Assembly (NCBI RefSeq): GCF_947497285.1
Contig: NZ_CANMFT010000001.1
Coordinates: 186,001-250,000 of the forward strand
DNA: 64,000 nucleotides
DNA from: an uncultured Aliiroseovarius sp.
GTDB lineage: Bacteria; Pseudomonadota; Alphaproteobacteria; Rhodobacterales; Rhodobacteraceae
Direction: 5' to 3'
In this document: positions 3,017-15,756 of the stretch, piece after piece
How the letters are laid out: each line of letters begins with the position of its first letter
Numbering within the stretch: position 1 is the stretch's first letter
Position numbers and translations under genes: made by a program
The notes under the pieces: generated by a model
The model's input: the letters and a program-made list of their open reading frames with translations, nothing else
Database searches by the model: none
What the model was told of the DNA's origin: nothing

Positions 3017-4216
3017 TCACTCAAACACCTCATCTCCGGTCGGCTCGATATGGTCGACCTTGTTCATGTGCTGCCTGAACCGCGCCAATTCCTGATACAT
3101 CCGCCTGCGCGCGCGGCTTTGATTGCCCAAGGGCCGGTGCGCGGGCAGGGAATGCCACGGGTTGATCCTCATGTTGCGTGCAAACGCCATTTGCGCAGGT
3201 TTTTCAAATTCTTGCATTGGTATGCGAATGCGCGCGACGGGGATCCATGGCGAAAGCTCCTCGGGCCAGAGCACCGAGGCGTCCTCGATCGGCATCAGGT
3301 GAGGGTCGGTTTGGATCTGCACGACCATGTCGAATTCCACCGGTTTTTCGCGCAAGGTTTTGGCCATGTTGTCACGCAGGTAATTGGGTGGCACGCGGCC
3401 AAACGGCACGCCGGGAATGTCCATGGGCACTTCGGTGCGCGGCACATAGGAATAGAGCATCGCCTGACCCTCGCCCATTAGGTAGGGCACGCAGCTGTAA
3501 TACCTGTGGCCAAGCGGGTTATATTGCGTCTCGTTCCAAAGCCCCTGCATCAGCATATCAAGCACATGGTTGTCCAAGGGATTGAGGAAATACCAAAGTG
3601 GTTCGTCAATCGTGCTCCAATATTGCAGCTTGGCGTTCTCGCGCGCGTCCGGTGTCACGAAGGTGGGCGTCACGACGGCGGGCCAGTCTTGCGTAAACTT
3701 TTCCTCGTCCATCAGTTTCGGGCCGGGCACATCCATGACTTTGACCGACATCGACCCGAAGCCCACGTCGCGAATATCCTCGGGCACGTCCGGCCCCGGT
3801 CCGGCGTATCGGATATATGCGGGATATTCCCGTTCGGTCGCAAACACCCCGTGGCGCAGATGGTCGGGCAGGTCGGGCAGCACGGTGAATGTGGCTTTGA
3901 CCAACCCGTGCGTCTTGGTGTTGCCGCCGCGTTCATACGCGCCGGGCTGGAAGTGCAGGTTCATCTGCTCGCGCATCTCGTCGATGATGGTTTGCAGCGC
4001 TTCCTCTTCCCAATCAAAGATTTTCTCTTCCGCCAATTCCAGCCCAAAGTCGTCGCGCTTGCGGTTCTTGAGCCGTTGGATCAATCGCGCCAGCGGGTCG
4101 CGGACCAGCGCGTTCAGGCGGCGGCGAAAGAACGGCTCTAACCGCCGTTCGAAATGCAGGCCAACCTGTGTCGCACGGTGGATCAGACGGCGGATCGGGA
4201 TCAGGATCGAGCGCAT
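3017..4216 (-). CDS. Catalase-family haem protein
   Basis: This 399-residue protein has the catalase fold signature but is shorter than a classical catalase (about 480 or more residues). A distal-histidine-like motif THGLVKATFTVLPDLP follows an N-terminal basic region. Near the C-terminus, the NPWHSLPAHRPLG block is followed by RARRRMY, which keeps the Arg-xxx-Tyr spacing expected for a proximal haem tyrosinate. This subtype resembles catalase-like proteins related to allene oxide synthases, which act on fatty-acid hydroperoxides, so peroxide or lipid-hydroperoxide breakdown are both possible. No signal peptide is visible. AGGAGA precedes the ATG by 6 nt. It is the last gene of a six-gene cluster, 9 nt after the DyP peroxidase gene. 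Confidence 0.85.
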   Translation of the reverse strand: MRSILIPIRRLIHRATQVGLHFERRLEPFFRRRLNALVRDPLARLIQRLKNRKRDDFGLELAEEKIFDWEEEALQTIIDEMREQMNLHFQPGAYERGGNTKTHGLVKATFTVLPDLPDHLRHGVFATEREYPAYIRYAGPGPDVPEDIRDVGFGSMSVKVMDVPGPKLMDEEKFTQDWPAVVTPTFVTPDARENAKLQYWSTIDEPLWYFLNPLDNHVLDMLMQGLWNETQYNPLGHRYYSCVPYLMGEGQAMLYSYVPRTEVPMDIPGVPFGRVPPNYLRDNMAKTLREKPVEFDMVVQIQTDPHLMPIEDASVLWPEELSPWIPVARIRIPMQEFEKPAQMAFARNMRINPWHSLPAHRPLGNQSRARRRMYQELARFRQHMNKVDHIEPTGDEVFE

Positions 4217-4225
4217 TCGGGTCTC

Positions 4226-5731
4226 CTATCTGCCGTGACGGGCGATGAATTGCAGGGCGCGCAGACCGGGCAGGAAGAAATAACCGCCGCCTTTTACGGT
4301 TACGAATTGCGGCAGGGGCGTGTGGCGCTCGTCGATCCCGTCGGCTTTCTGGATCGAGAACCCGTCGCTTGCGACCCCGCTGACCGGCGTGCGACCGCCA
4401 AGCAGGGGGTCGGCCTCCCCGGTCAGTCCGTTGAACTTGGGCGAGGCGATCCACGCGTTCTGAACAAACTCGAACTGCCGGACCAGATCGGCGCACAGGC
4501 AGATAAACAACAGCCCGCAATCGTCGGTTTTGGCGTCATTTTTCACTGCATCCCCGGGCGTCAATTTCGGGCCATAGACCCGCCCGCGCCGCACCAACCG
4601 GTGAAATCTGGTCGAGGCAACCAGGTCATGCCGCCCCGGCAGTTTATCGCGCCGCCTGCGGAACCCCAATGTGCTGAGCAACCAGCCAATGCGCCCCTCA
4701 AGCTGGTGCGGGTGGTCGCCGGTGCGGGGATTGGCGCGGCGGATATGCGCGCCAAGGGGGCATGACACGCCGTTAACATCGTCCTCATAAGTGAAGTCAT
4801 TGCTACGCGGCGACCCATCGATATCGTGGCGGCCGTGGATCAAGGAGGTGCCATCCCGTTCGCGCCCGACCATCTTGGCGGCCAGTGCGTCGCGGCGGGT
4901 TGGGTCCCCCTCGCTGGCCGCGTCCATGTAGCGCCAGAACCCCGGCACATCCTGCGCCAATTGGCGAAACACCAGATAGCTGCCGTTGCGCCCCAGATCA
5001 CGCAGATCTGGCGCGTCGGGGGCTTGAGCCAGCACGTCGCGACCCCGCACGCTTGCGTCAAGCAATGGCGAGGCCGAGCGCGCGTTGTATTCGTTGCGGT
5101 GCCCCAAGATGACCTCGCCGGGTGAGATCAGGTTGCTGTAATCCTCGCGCCCGTGTTTTGACGGCGGATGTGTGTTTTTCCAATCGACCTTTGGCTCGGA
5201 AATCCCGTCACGGAAGCCGAATGGTTCGATCCCTTCATTTGGACGGGTGGGAAAGCTCTGGACCAGATCGAACGCTGCGTTGAATTTAGGGCTTAGAACC
5301 TCTTTTCTCCAATCCTCCAAACCACCATTGCGCGCATAGAGCATGACCAGCAGGTGCGCGTTCGCCCCGTCCCAGGCCCACTTTTCGGGCGCATTCTGCC
5401 CCGTGTCGCCAAGCCGGCGTGACCGGCTATCCTCGCCCGCCATGCCCGACAGAAACGGCTGGGCGAAGCCTGAAGTGGCATTGTCTGACAGGCCAAACGC
5501 CGACAGGCCTGCGGCTGTGAAAGCGACTTGCAGGGCGGTGTCGGGGGGGCTGTCCAGCGTCTTCGCTGATGTCACCGGGGCGGTGCGCAACCACTCGCCT
5601 GCCGCCGCGGGGTCTTTGACGGTGCACAAGATGAACTCCGCCTCGACCAATGCGCCATGGCCGAACCGGATCAGCCCTTGCATGTCGTCAAATTCGACGG
5701 GATCAGAGGGTATGTTGGGCGTTTTGCTCAT
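4226..5731 (-). CDS. Dyp-type peroxidase
   Basis: This 501-residue haem peroxidase of the dye-decolorising family carries the key motifs in order: GFRDGISEP (about 172-180) with the catalytic Asp of GxxDG, CPLGAHIRRANPR (about 324-336) with the proximal haem His, and HRLVRRGRVYG (about 377-387) with the distal Arg. It would use peroxide to oxidise aromatic or other bulky substrates. No Sec or Tat signal is seen, so it is probably cytoplasmic or in an encapsulin-like setting, although no encapsulin gene is nearby. Its start overlaps the stop of the upstream 433-aa gene by 4 nt (ATGA), so the two are translationally coupled. Confidence 0.92.
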   Translation of the reverse strand: MSKTPNIPSDPVEFDDMQGLIRFGHGALVEAEFILCTVKDPAAAGEWLRTAPVTSAKTLDSPPDTALQVAFTAAGLSAFGLSDNATSGFAQPFLSGMAGEDSRSRRLGDTGQNAPEKWAWDGANAHLLVMLYARNGGLEDWRKEVLSPKFNAAFDLVQSFPTRPNEGIEPFGFRDGISEPKVDWKNTHPPSKHGREDYSNLISPGEVILGHRNEYNARSASPLLDASVRGRDVLAQAPDAPDLRDLGRNGSYLVFRQLAQDVPGFWRYMDAASEGDPTRRDALAAKMVGRERDGTSLIHGRHDIDGSPRSNDFTYEDDVNGVSCPLGAHIRRANPRTGDHPHQLEGRIGWLLSTLGFRRRRDKLPGRHDLVASTRFHRLVRRGRVYGPKLTPGDAVKNDAKTDDCGLLFICLCADLVRQFEFVQNAWIASPKFNGLTGEADPLLGGRTPVSGVASDGFSIQKADGIDERHTPLPQFVTVKGGGYFFLPGLRALQFIARHGR

Positions 5732-7029
5732 ATCTTCGACAACCAGTTGCGCAGGGCCTTGGCGCCATCCGGGCGTCTCTCCAACCCTTTGCGGATTTCA
5801 CTGTTGCGTGCCATGTCGCGCGCGGTCAGGCCGGGATAGGCTTTGTACCAGACCTGCGTGGGCAGTTGGCGATTGCGCAAGTAGCGCTTGAACTTGTCCT
5901 CTTGTTCCGCGCCGCCCTTGATCAGAAAGCGTGTCGAAGGGTAGCCAACGCCGTTTGAAAAGACGAGGTTCAAGCCCCACGCGACCTTGTTCACAAAATC
6001 ATCCATATAGCTTTCCACCGCCCCGTCATAATTGCTGCAAAACATCACCCGGCGTTTGCCGTCCAAGAAAACCCAGCGCGCGAAGTGGATCGTCTGCACG
6101 CGGGTCAGATAGCCGCGCCCAAAGATGTGGCGGGCTGAATAGTTGACCAAATAGAGCGCTGCGGTCGCGATCATCCGCCGGAACGGGCCGGGCTTCACGT
6201 CACCGAAGGCGGAAAACGGGTTGGTCACATCATGGTCTTCATAGCGGCCCAAATCGGCGATGCGGGCGTCGGCTGGACGGGGAAGGATCTCTGGGTCCGA
6301 ACGCTCGTGCATACGCAGGCGGATCACGAAAAACGGCAGAGCCAGCAGCAAAAGAGGGGAGATCATCAACAAGATCAGCGGCAAGCTGATCAGGTCAATC
6401 CAGTTGGCCAACCGCTCGCGCAGTGTTGTGCGCGCAGGCGGGGTCAGGTGAAGCACGCCACTGGCTCTCTCGCGGCGCACATAATCTACCAACCGCTCGT
6501 GGATTTCGAACGGGTCGGCGGATCCGCGGGCGTTCACCACGTTCGCCAGTTCGTCATGCAAGGCGGCGGCCAAAGCGGCTTCCTCGTGGACCTGACGCAC
6601 GGTGCGACCGCGCGTGTTGATGTAATTGGCAGACTCTCTGACGTTATGGTCTTCCATCCAGCGCAAAAGATCTGTGCCTTGGTCTACGCCCTCGCAATGA
6701 CTGAAAACCTCCATCAACCCATCGGCACAGTGGACCATCAGTTCTTTCAAAAACGTCTGCCGATCCCCGTCAACATCACCAAGAAAGGCAAGCTGCATCG
6801 GATACGGCTGCGGTTCCTGACCATAGGCTTCGATATCGCGCCATGTGTTCGCCTCGACCAGAAAGAAGCGCGCGACATGCAGCTGGTCGAACCTGCCAAA
6901 AGGCACAAGCGCGTTTTCGGGATCAGCGAGGCCCGGTTTCAGGGTCATGCCTAGCAGCAGCGACTCCAATTCTTCTGCCCGGCCTTCCGCGACCGGGGCG
7001 AGGATGAAGAATGTGTCCTGCTGCGTCAT
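5728..7029 (-). CDS. Membrane protein of unknown function with an internally duplicated domain
   Basis: I do not recognise a named family. The 433-residue protein has two related halves. The first (about residues 44-115) contains FGRFDQLHVARFFLVE, then FLGDVDGD and GLMEVFSHCEGV. The second (about 305-370) contains TRVQTIHFARWVFLDG, then FCSNYDGA and GLNLVFSNGVGY. Both share an HxAR-hydrophobic strand, a DG turn and a GLxxVFS element, consistent with a duplicated alpha/beta ferredoxin-like domain of the sort found in DyP-related proteins. A pair of hydrophobic segments at about 218-245 (LISLPLILLMISPLLLLALPF) separates the halves and should anchor the protein. It is coupled to the DyP gene by a 4-nt overlap and follows the 147-aa gene closely. 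Confidence 0.85.
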   Translation of the reverse strand: MTQQDTFFILAPVAEGRAEELESLLLGMTLKPGLADPENALVPFGRFDQLHVARFFLVEANTWRDIEAYGQEPQPYPMQLAFLGDVDGDRQTFLKELMVHCADGLMEVFSHCEGVDQGTDLLRWMEDHNVRESANYINTRGRTVRQVHEEAALAAALHDELANVVNARGSADPFEIHERLVDYVRRERASGVLHLTPPARTTLRERLANWIDLISLPLILLMISPLLLLALPFFVIRLRMHERSDPEILPRPADARIADLGRYEDHDVTNPFSAFGDVKPGPFRRMIATAALYLVNYSARHIFGRGYLTRVQTIHFARWVFLDGKRRVMFCSNYDGAVESYMDDFVNKVAWGLNLVFSNGVGYPSTRFLIKGGAEQEDKFKRYLRNRQLPTQVWYKAYPGLTARDMARNSEIRKGLERRPDGAKALRNWLSKI

Positions 7030-7036
7030 TGGGGCC

Positions 7037-7480
7037 TCAGGTTTCCGCGTTGAAATCGAGGGCGAAGTCGATCAGCCGCGTGTCGTCCCAATAGACCTTG
7101 CCCAGATACATGCCCGGCCCGATCTGGCGGATCTCATCGCGGATCCACTGGGCGACGATCGAGGTGTCGGAATAATCCAGCACGATACATTCCTTGCCGT
7201 CCAGCCAGCTTTTGTCCTTATAGACCTTGGCCAAGATGGCGTTCAGCCCGAAGGGCAAGATGCGGTTTTTCAGCACGCATTTCTCGGCGTCAAACACCTT
7301 GCCTTGCCACGCAAACCCGTTGATGAAGCGCGAAATCAGCGGTGTGAACCGGGTGCCCGGCGCGATGATCGCGGTGCCCTCGGCCTCGCCATCAGGGATC
7401 TCACCGGCATTGGACACGGTGAACAGCGCGTCCAACTCGTCCTGCTCCATGTCCATCAGGGTATCAATATCATATTTCAT
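7037..7480 (-). CDS. Conserved hypothetical protein in the GMC/DyP redox cluster
   Basis: I do not recognise this 147-residue protein. It is acidic at the N-terminus (MKYDIDTLMDMEQDELDALF) and then appears to form a compact beta-rich domain with the segments LISRFINGFAWQGKVFD, GKECIVLDYSDTS and YLGKVYWDDTRLIDFALDF. No cysteine pair, signal peptide or membrane segment is visible. The single-domain size and beta-barrel-like rhythm would suit a small ligand- or lipid-binding protein, but that is inference. The start overlaps the end of the GMC oxidoreductase gene by 11 nt, which marks it as part of the same transcript. Confidence 0.8.
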   Translation of the reverse strand: MKYDIDTLMDMEQDELDALFTVSNAGEIPDGEAEGTAIIAPGTRFTPLISRFINGFAWQGKVFDAEKCVLKNRILPFGLNAILAKVYKDKSWLDGKECIVLDYSDTSIVAQWIRDEIRQIGPGMYLGKVYWDDTRLIDFALDFNAET

Positions 7481-9356
7481 GCAACATATCCTCGCTTTGG
7501 GGTTGGGACTGCGCGTCTTCCAGCACCATGTCGGCGGCTTTCTCGCCGATCATGTAGACGGCGGACGCGATGAAAAATCCGGGGATTTCGGGAAAGACCG
7601 AGGCATCGGCGATCCGCAACCCCTTGGTGCCGTGAACCCGCAAACGGCTGTCCAGAACGCCGCCTTGATCCGCCGGACCAATGGGGCAGGAGCAGGACGC
7701 ATGATGGCCCCAGCAATTGTCGCGCACGAATTGCGCGATTTGTGCGTCTGTTTGCACCTCCGGGCCGGGCGTTTCCTCGGCGGCGATACGTCCGTCCTCG
7801 TGTAGGGGTGCGCAGAGCTGTCGCACGAATTTGACGCCCTCGACCACGGCGGACAGGTCTTCTTCGCCGCCTTCCGCGAAATAGTTGAAGTCGATGATCG
7901 GCCTGTCGCGTGGATCGTTGGACGCCAAGCGGACACGACCCGCCCGGTTCAACGTATGCGCCTTCAGAACGGCCCAACTTATGTGGTTCTTGCTGCGCGC
8001 CAGATCGGCCGCAAAACCGGGATAATACCCGTTGAACTTGCCCAAAAGCGCCATGCAGAACAGGTCTGGCACCGCCTGAGCCTCGGAAGAGCGCCGGATG
8101 ACCGCCAGAGCAGCCCCGTTGGTGGCATAAAGGCCGTCGCCACGTTCTTTCCACGTCTTCCACAATGGGTCGCCGACCTCATAGCGGCAGTCGGCCATGC
8201 ACTCCCACGTGTCGAAATTCATCCGGTTCACCACTGTGACCTCATAACGGTCCTGGAGCGAGCGCCCGACACCCGGCAGCGCCACCTTGGGCGTGATCCC
8301 CTGGGGGGCAAGCTCATCGGGGTCGCCAATGCCAGACAGCATCAAAAGCTGGGGCGTGTTGAAGGCACCGCCGGCCAGAATGACCTCTCGCGCTGCGTGG
8401 GCTTGTCGTGTCTCGCCCGGCGAGGTGCTCGGGTCGGCATGGGCGCGGTAAAGCCGGGCACCTTTCAGATATTCGACCCCGACCGCGCGATTGTCATCGT
8501 CCAGAAGCACCTTGGTGGCCAGCGCGTCGAGCTCGACGGTCAGCCGGTCAGGGTGTCGCTGCGCCACGTCCAAAACCCGTTCGCGCGACCCGATGCGCAC
8601 GCCGTTGCGCGTGGTCAGGGGTGTATAGACCATTCCGTCCGCGTCATCGTTGATCCGGTCACGGTCGTTGGGGTCTGCGGCGCTGTTGGCAAGCCAGCGC
8701 AGGCGTTGCAGGACGTCACCTCCCGCCCCCAGCATCTCGCGCAGGGAGGTCCGCACAACGTTCATGATATCGTCATCCCTGAGGGCTGCGCGCGGAATGG
8801 CCTTCTCGGTCGACAGCCAGCCAGCGAAGCCGTGGCCCGTCCGGTCTATGCCGATCGCGTTCAATATGCGCTGCACAGGCCGGTGCCGACAGTTTTCCAA
8901 CTTCTGAAAGGTCTTGTGCATGGCCTTAGGGGACCAGCTTTCATCACCGGTCAGGTCCGCGATACGCTGCCAATCGGAGTGATGCGGGTAGACGAAGATC
9001 ATCGCATTATGGGCCGTGCAGCCCCCCAACGTGCCCGCGCGCGGATACAGCACGCCTTCGGGTCCGGCTTTGGGATCGCGGGCCTGCGCATCAGCATCCG
9101 CATAGTGGCTGACATGGAAATCCCACCTGATCGCCGCGTTCTCGGTCGCGAACGGATGGAAGGCGGGCACGTCATAATCGTCGGGCAGGCGGTTCGCGGC
9201 CTCGTCCATGTCGCGCACGCCACCATTCAGGGATCGCGGGTCGCCACCGGCTTCCAACAACAGCACGCGCATCCCGCCCTCGGCCAGCCGCGCGGCAGCG
9301 GTTCCCCCGCCGGCGCCAGAGCCGACGACAATGTAGTCATAGGTTGGCTCCACCAT
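7470..9356 (-). CDS. GMC-family FAD-dependent oxidoreductase
   Basis: This 628-residue flavoprotein belongs to the glucose-methanol-choline family, which oxidises alcohols or sugars. The ADP-binding motif VVGSGAGGGTAAARLAEGG lies at the N-terminus, ending in the ribose-binding Glu of LLLEAGG. PRAGTLGGCTAHNAM is the GMC signature region. The C-terminal catalytic His lies in WGHHASCSCPIG, followed by RIADASVFPEIP. The start at 9356 is chosen because GAGGAG lies 5 nt before that ATG and the FAD motif follows at once; the frame stays open 105 nt further upstream into the cytochrome gene. The partner cytochrome c gene ends 8 nt upstream, suggesting electron transfer from flavin to haem. Confidence 0.93.
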   Translation of the reverse strand: MVEPTYDYIVVGSGAGGGTAAARLAEGGMRVLLLEAGGDPRSLNGGVRDMDEAANRLPDDYDVPAFHPFATENAAIRWDFHVSHYADADAQARDPKAGPEGVLYPRAGTLGGCTAHNAMIFVYPHHSDWQRIADLTGDESWSPKAMHKTFQKLENCRHRPVQRILNAIGIDRTGHGFAGWLSTEKAIPRAALRDDDIMNVVRTSLREMLGAGGDVLQRLRWLANSAADPNDRDRINDDADGMVYTPLTTRNGVRIGSRERVLDVAQRHPDRLTVELDALATKVLLDDDNRAVGVEYLKGARLYRAHADPSTSPGETRQAHAAREVILAGGAFNTPQLLMLSGIGDPDELAPQGITPKVALPGVGRSLQDRYEVTVVNRMNFDTWECMADCRYEVGDPLWKTWKERGDGLYATNGAALAVIRRSSEAQAVPDLFCMALLGKFNGYYPGFAADLARSKNHISWAVLKAHTLNRAGRVRLASNDPRDRPIIDFNYFAEGGEEDLSAVVEGVKFVRQLCAPLHEDGRIAAEETPGPEVQTDAQIAQFVRDNCWGHHASCSCPIGPADQGGVLDSRLRVHGTKGLRIADASVFPEIPGFFIASAVYMIGEKAADMVLEDAQSQPQSEDMLHEI

Positions 9357-9364
9357 CCCGCTCC

Positions 9365-11776
9365 TCAGAAGCGTTTGAGAAAGGCGATAAGCGCGTGCTT
9401 GTCTTCGTCCGCGAGTTTGGTGCCGAAGTAATGCCCGCGATTGACGACGAAATCGGGACATTTGCTGAGTTCAAGAAGTGGTTCCACCAGATCAGCAAAG
9501 ATCGCGCGGGCCTGTTCGTCGCTGGCATCGTCGGGCAACTCCTTCAGGTCGCGTTTGATCTTGATGATCAGCTTGGCAAGCTCAAAATCGTGGCCGATAC
9601 GCTCCAGCAGGTCAGCTTGGTCCAGCCGGATATTGAGGTTTGCCAGAAGTCCAATGGGCGTGCCCGCAGGGATCGGACCAAGGACGATGTCGCCATCCAG
9701 ATTGAACAGCCACGGCAGATCGTCGCGAAGCGGGGTCAAAAGTTTCACAAGGAAATCGGGCTGAAACCCTTTCGGCACGATCAGATAGCTCTGCTCGGTT
9801 GTGCGGTCGATCACGCCGGGCACCTTGTCGCCCAAGACGGAGTCGCGCAGGCGCTTTTCTGGCCAGAGCATTTTGGTGATGCCGTCGTCAAACGCCTGCA
9901 TCCTGCCATCGACTGACGGGTCCTGATTGTAGTACCCAACCGTGTTGTTCAGCAGATAGGGCGCGGTTGACCACAGGCTGATCAGCGACGGCACACGGGT
10001 ATAGCCGCGGCCGCCTGCGGGCAATACGTAGTCATATTCCTCGCCCGTTTTCGGGTGATGTACCTTGATCGTCCCGACCGATGGCAGCGCTTTATAGGTG
10101 GAGGACGAGAAATTGTCCCAAATGTTGCCCTCGATCGCGTTGGTGGCCAGCGGGCTGCAGGCGTTGGTTTCGAGTACCGTCACCGGGATGCGCAGCTCGT
10201 TTGACAGGTAGTTGCCGTCAAGGAAGTCATCTGCATGCACGATCTCGCGCATCTCGGCCTTGAACGCGTCGGTCCGGGTCAGTTCGCCATAGCGCTGGAA
10301 ACATTCCAGATAACCGGGGCCGGAACAGCCGCCGGGCATCGCCTCATAGGCGCTTTCGGGCAGTTTCGACGAATGACAGCCCGCGCAGTTTTCGGCAAAG
10401 ATCGTCTTGCCTTGATCCAGCAGGGCGTCATCCTCGGTCAGATGCGCGTCGCCGCCGGGGGCGTCTTTCAAACGGTCGGGGCGCCCGGCCTTGAGGAAGT
10501 AGAGCGCCGTCAGGGGCGACTGATCTTCGGTCGCTCGCCAATAGGCCGAGTTCTTCTGCGCGGTCTCGATCTTGATCGGCGTGATGTCCTTCCCACCCAC
10601 AATCGGGTTGAAATGACGCGTCCATTCTTCGCTGAACAGCCCGATGTTCAGATACACGCGGTTCAGCGCCCCAAGGGCACCGACGGAATCCGCCCCATCC
10701 TTCAGAACACGCGGGCTGAGGCTCAGGTCAGGCTCTTCGAAAAACTCGGTCAGCGGGCCTTCCGCGATGTAGTCCTGAAATTGCTTGTTGTCGCGTTCGC
10801 CGCCCTCAAGCCGCTCTTCGCCAAAGCGCCTCGCAACGGCAAGCCGTTCTTCAAGCAGATAGATCGCGTTCATCGTGCGCGGGTTGTTGATGTAATCCGG
10901 TGAAACCAGCGAGGTATCCAGCGTGCCGGGCCGCGCGGTGTGGATCAGTTGAACCATGTACTGACGCTTGTCCGGCTTCCACGCAAAGACCCGATCAAAC
11001 CAGAAATACTGCGCGCCGACCGTGGCGTTCAGATTGTTCATGGCGGGGTTTTCGGGGTCCTCTGGCGGATCAATCGGGCTTGGGCCGACATGACAGAACG
11101 CGCAGGACATGCCGACACGATAGGGACGCACAAGGTCGTCGTCGTTGTAATAGTCGGGATCATTGTAGAAACGCTCCGCGTCCCAGCGGCTTTCGGCGCG
11201 TTCGTCGAATTCCGGGTTCGGGAAAAGGCGCAAGCCCAGCACGCCGGTTGGCTCCCCGTAATAGGACCAGATGGGCATGTTGCGGCCGCGCGCGCCGATT
11301 TCGACGCCGGGATACTTCTCGGCGTTGGCGAAGGGGTCGGGCGCGCAATCGGGTTGGCGCACGTCCAGCCACAGCCCGTGGCGATCGGCGACCGGACCCG
11401 TGGCCTCGTCAAAGCATGGTTCGTTGATCAGACCCAGTTGTTCAAACCGATTGCTGCGTTTGGCTTCAAGGCTGGGATGTGACGACAATGTCTTGAGCAG
11501 ATCGAACTGCCCGAACGTGTCCACCGTCAGCGTGTCCCAGAGCAGATCATTGCCGCCGGTCCAGACCAACCACATGTTGCGGCCCTTGATTTCATCCGGG
11601 CTCAAGGCAATCCCGTTGTCCATTTCGGCAAAGTAATCTTCGTCGGCTGGGGGGAATGTGGTTTCGTCGCGGCCCACCAGAAGGGCTTCGTCCCGCGGGC
11701 CTGAAAAAAGCTGCGCGGATGCAGAGAGCGGCACCAAAAATACGAGCAAAAAGCGAATTAAAATACGGAGTAACAT
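9365..11776 (-). CDS. Secreted two-haem cytochrome c (peroxidase/RoxA-like)
   Basis: This 803-residue protein starts at 11776, where GAGGAG lies 7 nt upstream and a Sec signal (LLRILIRFLLVFLVPLSASA) follows directly; a farther in-frame ATG at 11827 would disrupt the signal. Two CxxCH haem sites are present: CAFCH at about 225-229 and CAGCH at about 464-468, some 240 residues apart. Size and spacing resemble the large di-haem proteins related to cytochrome c peroxidase/MauG and the rubber oxygenases RoxA/RoxB. It would act in the periplasm or be exported. It heads the minus-strand cluster, with the GMC flavoprotein gene 8 nt downstream. Subfamily assignment is tentative, whereas the two haems and the export signal are directly visible. 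Confidence 0.88.
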   Translation of the reverse strand: MLLRILIRFLLVFLVPLSASAQLFSGPRDEALLVGRDETTFPPADEDYFAEMDNGIALSPDEIKGRNMWLVWTGGNDLLWDTLTVDTFGQFDLLKTLSSHPSLEAKRSNRFEQLGLINEPCFDEATGPVADRHGLWLDVRQPDCAPDPFANAEKYPGVEIGARGRNMPIWSYYGEPTGVLGLRLFPNPEFDERAESRWDAERFYNDPDYYNDDDLVRPYRVGMSCAFCHVGPSPIDPPEDPENPAMNNLNATVGAQYFWFDRVFAWKPDKRQYMVQLIHTARPGTLDTSLVSPDYINNPRTMNAIYLLEERLAVARRFGEERLEGGERDNKQFQDYIAEGPLTEFFEEPDLSLSPRVLKDGADSVGALGALNRVYLNIGLFSEEWTRHFNPIVGGKDITPIKIETAQKNSAYWRATEDQSPLTALYFLKAGRPDRLKDAPGGDAHLTEDDALLDQGKTIFAENCAGCHSSKLPESAYEAMPGGCSGPGYLECFQRYGELTRTDAFKAEMREIVHADDFLDGNYLSNELRIPVTVLETNACSPLATNAIEGNIWDNFSSSTYKALPSVGTIKVHHPKTGEEYDYVLPAGGRGYTRVPSLISLWSTAPYLLNNTVGYYNQDPSVDGRMQAFDDGITKMLWPEKRLRDSVLGDKVPGVIDRTTEQSYLIVPKGFQPDFLVKLLTPLRDDLPWLFNLDGDIVLGPIPAGTPIGLLANLNIRLDQADLLERIGHDFELAKLIIKIKRDLKELPDDASDEQARAIFADLVEPLLELSKCPDFVVNRGHYFGTKLADEDKHALIAFLKRF

Positions 11777-12222
11777 GGGTAAACTCCTCAGTTCGGCGTA
11801 TGAAAAAGAATCAACTAAAAGTGGCAAATAATAGCGTCATTGTCGGCGCAGATCGCCTTTTTTGCAACAGTTTCGACTTTTGCGGCGAATTGTTGAGCAA
11901 GTTTGGACAGTTGTGGCGGCTCGCTTCTTTGCGCGTCAAAATGCGCTGCGGCTTCGGAATCTGGTAAGGGAAATGATGCGCCCCGAAGGCTGTCACTTGA
12001 CGGGTTACGCCGACCGAAAAACAACGATCTGCCCAGGTTGCCCTCACAGCCATTTGGTCCCTGTCGGGTCTCCTGTCGCAGCGGGACCAACAAGGTGAGA
12101 TCTTGTCCGTAACCAGAAATGATTTGCGGCGTCACAGATGACCTGTTGCGCGCCAATGCGGTCTTACAGTGGGATTGCCATCTGATCCCGCTGGAAAGGG
12201 AATGTGTCAGACCAAGGTGGCA
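11777..12222. other. 446-nt intergenic region upstream of the redox cluster
   Basis: The region separates the cytochrome c gene (start 11776) from the end of the indolepyruvate oxidoreductase gene, both on the minus strand. It should hold the promoter of the redox cluster, but no clear -35/-10 pair or known operator stands out. A perfect 8-bp inverted repeat (TTGGTCCC at 12054-12061 with GGGACCAA at 12083-12090, 21-nt loop) lies 278-314 nt before the cytochrome start and lacks a T tract. No convincing gene is seen. Confidence 0.5.
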
Positions 12223-15200
12223 TCAACCTTGCAGTGCTTCCGCGACCTCGGACTGCGCCGCGGTGAAGGCGGATTGTCGAACCGGGCCGTAGCCACGGAC
12301 CTCGTCCGCTGCGGCCAAGACACTTGCCCATTTGTCAGCGTTTTCCACCGAAAGCTCGGATTGCGCGCGATCAACCAGCGTTTCAAACCATGCCAGCGTG
12401 TCATGGTGCAATCGGGCCTCTGCATGATATCCGAACGGGTTGAGAGCCGACCGACGTAAGGATTTGAACCGCGCAAGCGGGGCCAGCACAGACCCAAGCC
12501 AAGGCCCGAACGCATACTTCTTGGGGCGCCCGCGGGCGTCTTTGGCCCAGCTGATCAGGGGCGGGGCCAGATGATAGCGAAGCTTCGCCCCGTCGTCGAA
12601 AGTGCCCTGCAATGCGTCGTTGAATTGGGGGGATGTCATCAGACGCGCGACTTCAAACTCATCCTTATAGGCCATGAACTTGAACAGGTTACGCGCAATC
12701 AGTTGCAGCAACAGGTCAGGCGCGTCGGGATGGGCGTCGCGAAACGAAGCCATACGATCTGCGTAGCGACGGGCATAGGCGTCGTCCTGATAGTCGCGCA
12801 GAAAGGCGGTGCGGCGCGAAATCATCTGATCAAGCGACTCGGTGCTCTGAGGGGCTTCAAGATAAGCTTGCAGATGGTCGGGATTGGCTTGCATGCAACG
12901 ACCGATGGCAAAGGCCAGAAGGTTCTTGTCGATGGCCACCCCGTTTAGCCGGATGGCCTGTTGCAGCGCCGCTTGCGACACCGGCACCAAGCCCGATTGC
13001 CATGCAAACCCAAGCATGATGACATTCGCAAATACCGTGTCCCCCAGCAAGCTTTCTGCGGTGGCATTTGCGTCAAAGGCGCTCAGATTCTCGGCACCCA
13101 CCACCTGGCGTATCGCGTCGGCACGGCGATCAATCTCCAACGAGGCATCGCGGCGCAGCACCAGATCGCCGGTGGGCATTTCCGCAAGGTTCAAAACGAC
13201 CTGCGTGCCGGGCTTGAAATGTGCCGACGCTTTTGGTGCTGAGCTGACCACGGCATCGCAGCCAATTACCGCGTCGGCAGCTGCCTCTTCAATGCGGACC
13301 TGATGGAGTTGATCAGGCGATTGCCCCAACCGAATAAAGCTAAGCACTGTTCCGAACTTCTGGGCGAACCCGGTGAAGTCCAATACCGACGCGCCTTTGT
13401 TTTCAAGATGCGCAGCCATCGTGATCAGCGCACCAATGGTGACAACGCCTGTGCCACCCACCCCGGTGACCAGCAGGTCAAACGGGTCTTCAAGGGTGGG
13501 CAGGGTCGGGTCAGGCAAATGGTGTTCAATGGCTTCAGCGTCCAGTTTGACGCCTTTGTCCCGGCGCAATCGACCCTCGACGGTGACGAAGCTTGGACAA
13601 AATCCGTTCAGGCAGGAAAAATCCTTGTTGCACGACGATTGGTTGATCTTGCGTTTGCGCCCCAGTGGGGTCTGCAACGGCTCGACGCTCAGGCAATTGC
13701 TTTCGACCGAACAGTCGCCGCACCCCTCGCACACGAGGTCGTTGATAAAGGCGAAGCGTTTTGGGTCTTCCAGCGTGCCACGCTTGCGTCGGCGCCGTTT
13801 TTCAGTGGCGCAGGTCTGCTCATAGATCAGGACGGTCACGCCGCTGATGTCGCGCAGTTCACGTTGAACCCTGTCCAGATCTGCGCGGTCGTGGAAACTG
13901 GTGCCCTGCGGAAAGTCACGCCGCCTGAATTTGGAGATATCGTCGGACACAAGCGCAATGCGCCCGACACCTTCGGCGCGGCACGCATGCGCGATCCCGG
14001 TGACGCTGACGGGGCCATCGACTGGCTGACCGCCAGTCATCGCAACGGCATCATTGTAAAGGATTTTGTAGGTGATATTGGCGCGTGCCGCGACCGCCTG
14101 CCGGATGGCCAGGCTGCCAGAATGATACCAGGTGCCTTCGCCAAGGTTCTGGAAAATATGCTTGCCGCCGTTGAATTTCGACGCGGCCACATGGGGCACG
14201 CCTTCGCCGCCCATCTGGGCGTAACCGACCGTTTGACGGTCCATCCAGCTGGCCATGACATGGCAGCCGATCCCGCTGGCGGCGGTCGAGCCTTCGGGGA
14301 CTTTGGTCGAGCTGTTATGCGGGCAGCCCGAGCAGAAATAGGGGGTGCGTGTTGCGCCGGGAATGGCGATCAACTTGGGCGCAGGGCGCAGGGCTTCGGC
14401 CTTTTGAAGCAAGTTTTCGCCGGGAAACAACCCGTCAAGGCGGGCGGCGACCAGAGGCAAAAGCGTCAGGGGACTCAGCTCACCCGTCCATGGGATCAAC
14501 GGGTCGCCTTGGCTGTCATGCTTGCCGACCATTTTGGCCGGCTTGGCGCCCGGCCAATCATAGAAATACTCCTTGAACTGGCTTTCGATAATGCCGCGCT
14601 TTTCCTCTATGACCATGACTTCCTGTTTGCCACTGACGAACCGTAACGCGTCTTGGCGGGCAAGTGGCCAAACCATGCCGACTTTGTAAATGTCGATGCC
14701 AAGGCGCCGGCAGGCGGCTTCGTCCAATCCTAAAAGGCGCAGTGCCTCCATCAGGTCCAGATGACCCTTGCCGGTGGTGACAAAGCCAAAGCGGGCGTCT
14801 TCGATGTCATATATGCGCCGGTCGATCGGGTTGGCGTCGGCGAAGGCGCGAACGGCGCGCAACTTGTGTTTGATGCGAGTTTCAATTTCCGGGCTGGGAA
14901 GGTCGGCGGCGCGGACATGAAGCCCGCCTTCGGGGATGGAAATCTCGGGCAGAGCGAAGACCCGGTCAGGCGCGAGCTCTACGGTGCGCGCACTTTCGAC
15001 GGTTTCCGAGATGGCCTTGAAGCCGACCCACGTTCCTGAAAAGCGTGACAGAGCGATGCCGTATTCGCCGAACTCAAGATACTCCGCGACCGAGGCCGGG
15101 TTCAGAGTGGGCATGAACCACGCCATGAATGCCACGTCGGACTGATGTGGCATCGACGAGCTGACACAACCGTGATCGTCACCCGCCACAACCAGCACGC

Positions 15201-15630
15201 CGCCTTTGGGGGCGCTGCCATAGGCGTTACCGTGCTTTAGCGCATCGCCTGACCGGTCGACGCCGGGGCCCTTGCCATACCAGATGGAAAACACCCCCTC
15301 GACGTCGCAGTCAGGGTCAAGCGAGGCCTGCTGCGCGCCAAGGACGGCCGTTGCACCCAAGTCTTCGTTGACCGCGGGCATGAAGGTCACCCGGTCGGAT
15401 GTAAGCCGATCACCGGCGCGCCACAGCTCCAGATCCAAGGCCCCCAAAGGCGACCCACGGTAGCCTGACACGAACCCGGCGGTGTTCAGACCTGCCGCGC
15501 GGTCGCGCCGGGCCTGATCCAGAAGGATGCGCACCAAAGCCTGCGTGCCTGTCAAAAAGACACTGCCATGGTCCGCCAGATAGCGATCCTCTAGTTGATA
15601 GGGCTTAAGCGCCTGATGGGGGGATGGCAT
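12223..15630 (-). CDS. Indolepyruvate ferredoxin oxidoreductase, fused alpha/beta
   Basis: This 1135-residue fused enzyme decarboxylates aryl-pyruvates (indolepyruvate, phenylpyruvate) from aromatic amino acid breakdown to acyl-CoA, reducing ferredoxin. The N-terminal half holds the pyruvate-ferredoxin oxidoreductase core and the TPP region (GIGCHVMASWMD ... QMGGEG ... NDAVAMTGGQPVDG). A cysteine-rich cluster with CEGCGDCSVESNC, CNKDFSC and CPSF would bind Fe-S centres. The C-terminal gamma-type domain starts near DLLVTGVGGTGVVTIG. The start at 15630 is chosen because GGAG lies about 8 nt upstream and MPSPHQALKPYQLEDRY matches the usual beginning; the frame is open to 15738. A divergent Lrp-type regulator gene lies 126 nt away and probably controls it. 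Confidence 0.92.
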   Translation of the reverse strand: MPSPHQALKPYQLEDRYLADHGSVFLTGTQALVRILLDQARRDRAAGLNTAGFVSGYRGSPLGALDLELWRAGDRLTSDRVTFMPAVNEDLGATAVLGAQQASLDPDCDVEGVFSIWYGKGPGVDRSGDALKHGNAYGSAPKGGVLVVAGDDHGCVSSSMPHQSDVAFMAWFMPTLNPASVAEYLEFGEYGIALSRFSGTWVGFKAISETVESARTVELAPDRVFALPEISIPEGGLHVRAADLPSPEIETRIKHKLRAVRAFADANPIDRRIYDIEDARFGFVTTGKGHLDLMEALRLLGLDEAACRRLGIDIYKVGMVWPLARQDALRFVSGKQEVMVIEEKRGIIESQFKEYFYDWPGAKPAKMVGKHDSQGDPLIPWTGELSPLTLLPLVAARLDGLFPGENLLQKAEALRPAPKLIAIPGATRTPYFCSGCPHNSSTKVPEGSTAASGIGCHVMASWMDRQTVGYAQMGGEGVPHVAASKFNGGKHIFQNLGEGTWYHSGSLAIRQAVAARANITYKILYNDAVAMTGGQPVDGPVSVTGIAHACRAEGVGRIALVSDDISKFRRRDFPQGTSFHDRADLDRVQRELRDISGVTVLIYEQTCATEKRRRRKRGTLEDPKRFAFINDLVCEGCGDCSVESNCLSVEPLQTPLGRKRKINQSSCNKDFSCLNGFCPSFVTVEGRLRRDKGVKLDAEAIEHHLPDPTLPTLEDPFDLLVTGVGGTGVVTIGALITMAAHLENKGASVLDFTGFAQKFGTVLSFIRLGQSPDQLHQVRIEEAAADAVIGCDAVVSSAPKASAHFKPGTQVVLNLAEMPTGDLVLRRDASLEIDRRADAIRQVVGAENLSAFDANATAESLLGDTVFANVIMLGFAWQSGLVPVSQAALQQAIRLNGVAIDKNLLAFAIGRCMQANPDHLQAYLEAPQSTESLDQMISRRTAFLRDYQDDAYARRYADRMASFRDAHPDAPDLLLQLIARNLFKFMAYKDEFEVARLMTSPQFNDALQGTFDDGAKLRYHLAPPLISWAKDARGRPKKYAFGPWLGSVLAPLARFKSLRRSALNPFGYHAEARLHHDTLAWFETLVDRAQSELSVENADKWASVLAAADEVRGYGPVRQSAFTAAQSEVAEALQG

Positions 15631-15756
15631 GGTCAAGGCTCCGATTGGGTGATGAACAGGTGAAATTGTAAGCCCTTTGGTTTGAAAAAAATTTCCATAT
15701 CCGGTCGAAATTGGGCTAAAATCGGTGATCTGATCCACTAGGGCGGCAAAATTCGG

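Follow-up and report, generated by a model that had tools for sequence, protein, structure and literature searches.

The window analysed here, a stretch of 64,000 nucleotides from the genome of an uncultured Aliiroseovarius sp. (contig NZ_CANMFT010000001.1), contains a block of six open reading frames (ORFs), all on the minus strand and spanning positions 3017–11776, where a preliminary description made from the sequence alone had already placed them. In the order of reading they encode an apparently exported di-haem cytochrome c that is a predicted oxygenase (CYTC, P0006; 9365–11776), a GMC-family flavoprotein (GMC, P0005; 7470–9356), a small predicted beta-barrel protein that might bind lipid (U147, P0004; 7037–7480), a protein with two ferredoxin-like halves of ABM/SchA type and a long membrane-type helix (U433, P0003; 5728–7029), its partner, a DyP-type peroxidase (DyP, P0002; 4226–5731), and a catalase-related haem protein devoid of the distal histidine (CAT, P0001; 3017–4216). 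The close packing already noticed was borne out, the tightest junction being an overlap of 11 nt and the widest a gap of 9 nt: CYTC and GMC are separated by 8 nt, GMC and U147 overlap by 11 nt, U147 and U433 lie 7 nt apart, U433 and DyP overlap by 4 nt, and 9 nt separate DyP from CAT. The ORF of GMC is open to position 9461; the later ATG at 9356 (MVEPTYDY) is its likely start, since it fits the short junction best. CYTC starts with the ATG at 11776, just downstream of a GAGGAG ribosome-type site present in five of six aligned sequences, that of the window included, the sixth sequence stopping before this position. About 100 bp located 5' of this site are conserved between the window and five orthologues, and the whole conserved stretch (11777–11909, minus strand) presumably comprises the promoter and the ribosome site. 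The elements TGTC, ACTGTTGCAAAAA and TTGATTC, conserved among the orthologues in this region, are possibly the site of a regulator. A promoter scan upstream of the operon found no sigma-70 consensus, and terminator-like sites occurred only at background level in the scan.

Comparison within the genus indicated that the six genes behave as a unit. CYTC is carried by eight of 21 genus genomes, the window's own included, and all six genes appeared in unchanged order in the six other members whose loci were read (L120 and L170–L174; L numbers denote loci and G numbers genomes). In G759, the seventh other genome with CYTC, the matching sequence runs into a contig end and contains one internal stop. 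When the six relatives were compared with the opening 30 kb of the window, DNA homology was limited to the block, starting at 3017–3029 and ending at 11822–11909, as judged from four one-piece matches and two two-piece matches (L172 and L173) taken together; one of the pieces enters only from ~5,070. L170 is 95.7% identical over the block, yet its flanks are unrelated to those of the window. Flanks are common to L120, L172 and L174, so that these three have the site of the block in common. The indolepyruvate-ferredoxin-oxidoreductase-type neighbour of the block in the window lies in the relatives on another contig or hundreds of kb from the block, and the ABC permease neighbour is likewise distant, except in G757 (~13 kb from the block); no ABC match was obtained in G759 and G762 at the strict limit used. 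The ratio of nonsynonymous to synonymous substitutions was 0.00–0.29 across all genes and pairs, and 0.04–0.20 in five divergent pairs. Because gene order is constant, homology ends at the block edges, flanks are unrelated and substitution ratios are low, the six genes are, by these sequence comparisons, under selection and relocating as one piece, in agreement with the single functional unit proposed previously. Of the 20 other genus genomes, 11 hold a copy of the oxidoreductase-type neighbour itself (12223–15738) at 70–73% identity; a second type, ~45% identical, is present in the genome of the window and in 19 of these 20, while G760, which is incomplete, shows a fragment only.

The block is a composite of two modules, module A (U433 and DyP) and module B (CYTC, GMC and U147). 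The preliminary description had held that homologues occurring only scattered and never together would speak against a dedicated system. In the data searched, the full six-gene set stands together within this one genus only, and it is modules, not the full set, that occur together in distant bacteria.

Module A was traced by aligning the C-terminal half of U433 and scanning a collection of 84,980 species with one peptide pattern, which gave 338 candidate stretches; 303 of them encode a U433 relative, and the best 80 of these 303 were kept as genome loci. DyP follows U433 in all of the best 80. A cytochrome P450 was counted in 74 of these loci, located upstream of U433 with a readable I-helix in 69, as a cut copy in one (L041) and as a separate downstream gene in four, all from Bacteroidota; the match in L076 was excluded, since the query carried part of the U domain and matched that domain only. 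Among the six loci where no P450 was seen, L061 has the arrangement CAT-U433-DyP and is the single one of the 80 with a catalase-like gene. In 17 representatives measured (14 from the scan and three plasmid loci) P450, U433 and DyP form a single frame of 1,398–1,647 aa. The long form of U433 also occurs on plasmids, with a separate P450 in L011 and as U433-DyP without P450 in L013. Short, one-domain U versions appear as CAT/U/DyP or U/DyP/CAT in nine annotated plasmids, from Agrobacterium, Sphingobium, Roseomonas, Ketogulonicigenium, Microvirga, Paracoccus yeei, Rhodococcus, Acinetobacter and Deinococcus, which were picked to vary the organism, one of them from the CAT list and the others among the weaker matches to U433. 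Module A is thus widespread and present in several bacterial phyla; the U domain as such is uncommon, being found in eight of 289 class genomes and 18 of 295 family genomes (own genome included). A further arrangement in the family and class of the window consists of a short U, a gap of ~1 kb, DyP and P450 (L131, L178, L179, L181, L182, L184, L186, L188 and L189); in L131 the gap holds a 333-aa frame, and a DNA gyrase A gene adjoins.

The AlphaFold2 model of U433 (pLDDT 91) consists of two ferredoxin-like halves around a 42-residue helix with a strongly hydrophobic stretch, residues 218–236 (6322–6378, minus strand), whose Kyte-Doolittle mean of 2.81 over 19 residues predicts a membrane anchor. 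Foldseek placed the ABM/SchA-like WhiE-ORFI first (9lmn, E 2.6e-5, TM 0.37–0.38 of the query) and also retrieved a polyketide decarboxylase (9ltx, E 5.8e-4), with modest best-match TM values overall (0.32–0.38 of the query); in Pfam and NCBIfam only a sub-threshold Peptidase_S9_N score was obtained. Either a scaffold or an enzyme without cofactor is conceivable for U433. DyP-type peroxidases, whose natural substrates are often unknown, are marked by the motifs GxxDG and GAHxxR, which in the window protein read GFRDG at residue 172 and GAHIRR at 327 (in full, GAHIRRANPR). It matched Pfam PF20628 with 23.5 bits (cut-off 20), while DyP_N (19.6, against 27.5) and NCBIfam TIGR01413 (88 bits, against 100.5) remained below their cut-offs. 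As for the P450 partners, the usual I-helix motif of these enzymes is (A/G)Gx(D/E)T, and CYP74, prostacyclin synthase and CYP152 are members whose substrates are hydroperoxides and which do not activate O2. All 69 readable fused-type sequences show GF(V/G/A/T/I)PT at the I-helix, with no acid and with Pro instead of Thr, as would be expected by analogy for P450s acting on hydroperoxides.

Within module B, CYTC contains CxxCH motifs at residues 225 (CAFCH, 11090–11104) and 464 (CAGCH, 10373–10387), NRGHYFG at 779 and a hydrophobic, signal-like N-terminus. It fits the RoxA/PA2077-type layout of two CxxCH motifs ~200–245 residues apart, an export signal and a C-terminal GH motif (spacings as given in the excerpt of PMC4496055). 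A global hhalign comparison of the CYTC family with a RoxA-like set (A8) gave a single-pair E of 3e-18, with the haem motifs and the C-terminal GH colinear, and A8 matched RoxA itself (4b2n) with E 4e-22. Under NCBIfam NF040606, CYTC reached 32.6 bits (cut-off 150), and a search of its own genome with this model gave one weak match besides CYTC. A PDB search with the cytochrome alignment retrieved mainly generic cytochrome c around one haem motif, and BLASTP of CYTC against the NGR234 di-haem protein returned only motif-length pieces above noise. By way of the intermediate set, CYTC appears to be divergent kin of the RoxA-type di-haem oxygenases and is predicted to be an oxygenase. Its relatives are rare and were met in seven of 385 class genomes, the window's own among them. 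In Rhizobium, Sinorhizobium and G716, CYTC occurs with GMC and two RoxA-type cytochromes, and in L124–L127 a U147-family protein, 24–28% identical, follows CYTC directly. An unassigned 559-aa protein with one CxxCH-type motif (CLACH) lies beside the distant relatives of the cytochrome and of U147 in L124 (7068–8744) and has relatives in L126 and L127.

U147 was modelled by AlphaFold2 as a beta-barrel (pLDDT 80, from an alignment of five sequences). Foldseek matched a single solved structure under E 0.001, Tcur_1030 (4mve, E 3e-4); CRABP and lipocalins came next, at E >= 0.09, which is why lipid binding by U147 is put forward here as a guess. No match to U147 was found in Pfam or NCBIfam, nor in a PDB sequence search with its alignment. 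Relatives occur in four of 398 phylum genomes, the own genome and one genus member included, and adjoin CYTC-type cytochromes or lie near a cyclooxygenase-like (COX-like) peroxidase. In the few U147 genomes tested, CYTC and the COX-like protein were mutually exclusive, with CYTC only in the window genome and G502 and the COX-like protein only in G640, and the two look like alternatives. GMC matched both the N and C Pfam models of GMC_oxred; WGHH is invariant in eight relatives, and the second catalytic position is presumably neither His nor Asn. A fatty-acid photodecarboxylase was considered and rejected for GMC: such structures scored 100.6–102.6 bits and were surpassed by other GMC enzymes, those of choline-oxidase type included (up to 145), and therefore no special kinship is apparent.

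The sixth protein, CAT, is catalase-related but deviates at the catalytic site. Phmmer matched it to the coral allene oxide synthase 1u5u (E 3e-4), and a profile search to 3e4w (E 2e-12) and 1u5u (E 8e-11), plus catalases; no Pfam or NCBIfam model matched at E <= 1, that of typical catalases (PF00199) included. In the alignment the haem-holding residues are kept as Arg96, Arg136, Arg370, Tyr374 and Arg381. Arg370 is the equivalent of Arg349, which we take to be a further haem-seat position of the coral enzyme, and Tyr374 (codon at 3095–3097) that of its proximal haem ligand Tyr353. The haem and distal residues of the coral enzyme given in the excerpt of PMC5617202 are Arg64, Thr66-His67, Arg102, Asn137, Tyr353 and Arg360. 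On the distal side CAT has Gly98-Asn99 for Thr66-His67, Asn99 (codon at 3920–3922) taking the place of the catalytic histidine, and Ala-Val-Val in the region of Asn137. Among 24 aligned catalase-like proteins, from which the CAT of L170 was left out, the distal position is occupied by His in 14, Asn in nine and Gln in one; the Asn or Gln bearers are the window protein, five genus relatives, G347, both G640 copies and a Calothrix protein, whereas the CAT of Ketogulonicigenium, for example, bears His. Among the lineages read, U147 near CAT was likewise confined to the genus, G347 and G640. The only PF00199 match in the genome of the window is a separate gene on contig C8, a true catalase. The presence of Asn99 together with this separate true catalase tells against the earlier view of DyP and CAT as two haem enzymes that use peroxide. 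Of the five further genomes tested for a true catalase, three have one, G502 yielded none, and the sole match in G640 was a weak one to the cluster protein. The idea of CAT as a fixed partner of U and DyP was discarded, since of six loci taken from the CAT list only H70 has U and DyP, and H70 had been picked because U was already seen nearby. In G640, DyP and a catalase-like protein share one 900-aa frame (L122:15687–18386), a fusion that can be taken as a pointer that both act together. On pNGR234a, a catalase-like protein with the distal His, a hypothetical protein, a di-haem peroxidase-like protein and a patatin-type protein stand in a row (L135:7088–13141).

The surroundings of the relatives are of lipid type in several instances, which supports the hydrophobic lipid substrate suggested in the preliminary description. 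Of the six GMC loci read outside the genus, four (L016–L019) have a patatin-type protein adjacent to the GMC relative or fused with it, and none was seen at L022 and L123. The patatin score was above the cut-off in L016 and L018 and below it in L017 and L019; the L017 protein is 61% identical to that of L016, the two clusters being close kin. In L019, from a Mesorhizobium onobrychidis plasmid, GMC and the patatin-type protein share a 1562-aa frame (8905–13590; patatin 26.6 bits, just below cut-off). The NGR234 locus combines CAT, a hypothetical protein, a di-haem protein that scores 491 bits with NF040606, and a protein of patatin type whose 26.0 bits narrowly miss the cut-off; the Calothrix locus holds a COX-like peroxidase, a doubtful catalase-like protein, GMC and patatin. 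G640 has U147, CAT, the COX-like peroxidase, U433 and the DyP-CAT fusion, without CYTC; in Methylobacterium the COX-like protein is directly beside CAT; and G347 shows a row of CAT, DyP, U433, U147, a cholesterol-oxidase-type GMC and an alpha/beta hydrolase. Oleate hydratase adjoins CAT/U/DyP in three near-identical mobile copies on the Agrobacterium, Sphingobium and Roseomonas plasmids, counted as one event, and also stands beside one diverged chromosomal copy, in G444. The cassettes of Acinetobacter and Deinococcus have a 3-hydroxyacyl-CoA dehydrogenase next to them, and in Paracoccus there are acyl-CoA dehydrogenase genes in the vicinity of the cassette.

The direct readings concern the content, order and conservation of the genes, their relocation as a block, the haem residues, the folds as predicted and the associations seen in genomes. 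On these grounds we infer a cassette for lipid oxygenation and hydroperoxide conversion, with unsaturated fatty acids as candidate substrates and signalling, catabolism or detoxification as conceivable purposes, and rate the chances of this reading as about even. In such a cassette the exported CYTC would oxygenate an unsaturated fatty-acyl chain with O2 at a double bond, an activity proposed because of its kinship to RoxA and to PA2077/PA2078 of Pseudomonas. The U147 barrel would, judging by its fold, bind or pass on the lipid; CAT would rearrange or cleave the fatty-acid hydroperoxide instead of dismutating H2O2, as its residues and precedent suggest; DyP, on membrane-anchored U433, might act on the lipid in a second step, peroxide-dependent or of peroxygenase type; and GMC could oxidise the alcohol or aldehyde product.

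Systems with comparable parts have been described. In Nostoc punctiforme, according to the accessible part of PMC9579011, a linoleate 10S-dioxygenase is accompanied by a catalase-related 10S-hydroperoxide lyase that cleaves its product, and this logic of oxygenating first and then converting the hydroperoxide was applied to the window, with CYTC as the first actor and CAT, perhaps with DyP, as the second. Both pair a haem dioxygenase, in the window a predicted one, with a catalase-related protein, and relatives of the window CAT stand beside COX-like proteins in G640 and Methylobacterium; in contrast, the window has a RoxA-type CYTC in place of the COX-like protein, adds GMC, U147, U433 and DyP, and has a CAT without distal His, a comparison of which the residues of the Nostoc protein were not part. 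Pseudomonas aeruginosa PA2077 and PA2078 are an oleate 10S-dioxygenase and a 7,10-diol synthase, fatty-acid oxygenating kin of RoxA in the portion of PMC4496055 at hand. Like CYTC, they are exported and have two CxxCH motifs at a similar distance (235–245 residues, and 239 in CYTC), a likeness drawn from the published description, not from direct sequence comparison; they differ in the His of PYLHNGSV, which is Leu in CYTC, and that portion of the paper mentions no CAT, DyP, U433 or GMC partner. The coral allene oxide synthase/hydroperoxide lyase shares with CAT the catalase-type core and equivalents of Arg64, Arg102, Tyr353 and Arg360 (PMC5617202, in excerpt), but CAT has Asn99 for His67, Ala-Val-Val near Asn137 and no lipoxygenase domain. 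The oleate hydratase cassettes of the Agrobacterium, Sphingobium and Roseomonas plasmids have the same core of CAT, U-domain protein and DyP, although their U is short, the distal His of CAT is kept (as read in Agrobacterium) and no CYTC, GMC or U147 is annotated.

A wider reading, which we offer tentatively, is that of a so far undescribed bacterial oxylipin system of modular build, in which a common core of DyP and the membrane-anchored, ABM-fold U433 is combined with interchangeable oxygenases and hydroperoxide-converting haem enzymes, the block of the window being a mobile version. With the same reserve, the plug-in oxygenases might be RoxA-type di-haem or cyclooxygenase-like proteins, and the converters catalases without distal His or P450s without the O2-activating pair.

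Several observations weigh against a lipid-oxygenating cassette, or against parts of it. Default local profile comparison of CYTC with A8 aligns 26 C-terminal columns only; no significant direct PDB match was found for P0006, 4b2n reaching only E 0.056; and the His signature PYLHNGSV of PA2077 reads STAPYLLNNT in CYTC, the histidine at that position being kept in L019 and L124–L127 and absent in L016, L017 and L123. The Calothrix 'catalase-like' protein was named by eye only, from a poor alignment at 16% identity, and the CAT loci L021 and L135–L138 show neither U nor DyP. G347 has CAT, DyP, U433, U147 and a GMC of another type, and neither CYTC nor a COX-like protein was found genome-wide. 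Separate Bacteroidota P450s in L065 and L087 keep the acid/Thr pair (ETT/DTT), so that the idea of one hydroperoxide role shared by all P450 partners was dropped; in the other two, L042 and L070, the I-helix reads otherwise. CYTC looks exported, while GMC, U147, DyP and CAT are without evident signal sequence (N-termini by eye), and the transfer of product between them is therefore unexplained. Finally, no fatty-acid gene was found within 6 kb in three of the nine plasmid cassettes (Ketogulonicigenium, Microvirga and Rhodococcus), no marker fatty-acid or lipase gene around the 80 long-form loci, the P450 forms among them, and no lipase by Pfam scan among the neighbours of the block at 1–2953 and 12223–15738.

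Other functions were weighed against the same evidence. CAT, U433 and DyP could remove lipid peroxides at the membrane, with CYTC and GMC disposing of the products and no signal being made, as a defence against lipid hydroperoxides or against unsaturated fatty acids that are toxic. Such detoxification is in keeping with the membrane-type helix of U433, with the handling of H2O2 by the true catalase elsewhere in the genome, and with plasmid CAT/U/DyP sets that lie close to transposase genes and are accompanied by oleate hydratase, a thioesterase and a TetR regulator; however, a RoxA-type CYTC and its COX-like counterpart suggest addition of oxygen, beyond peroxide removal, and the patatin beside GMC relatives suggests lipid release, so we regard this account as unlikely. 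Cleavage of polyisoprenoids or terpenoids (squalene, carotenoids or rubber-like polymers) for carbon, with CYTC as cleaver, GMC oxidising the aldehydes and DyP and CAT assisting, would agree with the kinship of CYTC to RoxA, which cleaves poly(cis-1,4-isoprene) (PMC4496055, in part). It is distinctly improbable in our estimation: several neighbours of the relatives are lipase-type or fatty-acid genes, isoprenoid genes not having been searched systematically, and the family of the COX-like counterpart has, in the literature at hand, known fatty-acid oxygenases. GMC oxidases and peroxide-using DyPs exist and the genes are co-linear, but the scheme of the preliminary description, in which GMC makes H2O2 for DyP and the catalase-like protein to use or remove, or passes electrons to CYTC, is very improbable given that CAT lacks the distal His, that CYTC looks exported and GMC has no evident signal, and that the 80 U433/DyP loci, when searched with markers, yielded no GMC of the window's kind.

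Under the favoured reading of lipid oxygenation followed by hydroperoxide conversion, the division of labour is probably that of plant, animal and algal oxylipin pathways, but the enzymes form another set, part of which is undescribed. Knowledge of oxylipins is extensive for animals, plants and fungi and patchy for bacteria, where oxylipins of Pseudomonas are, going by titles or abstract openings, the subject of PMC5155153 and PMC6377657. Among open-licence PMC papers, covered by titles and abstract openings, no description of the U433/DyP module, the P450-DyP fusion or the six-gene set was found, consistent with the earlier remark that no named pathway of this composition was known to its author; the enzyme families and pairs of a dioxygenase with a catalase-related protein are known, and the combination and the U433/DyP core are, as far as seen, new. 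This core would give DyP peroxidases a putative lipid role, and the proteins named here are concrete ones on which such a role can be tested. In turn, catalase-like proteins that either have or lack the catalytic histidine form a natural series, useful for learning how one haem scaffold changes its reaction.

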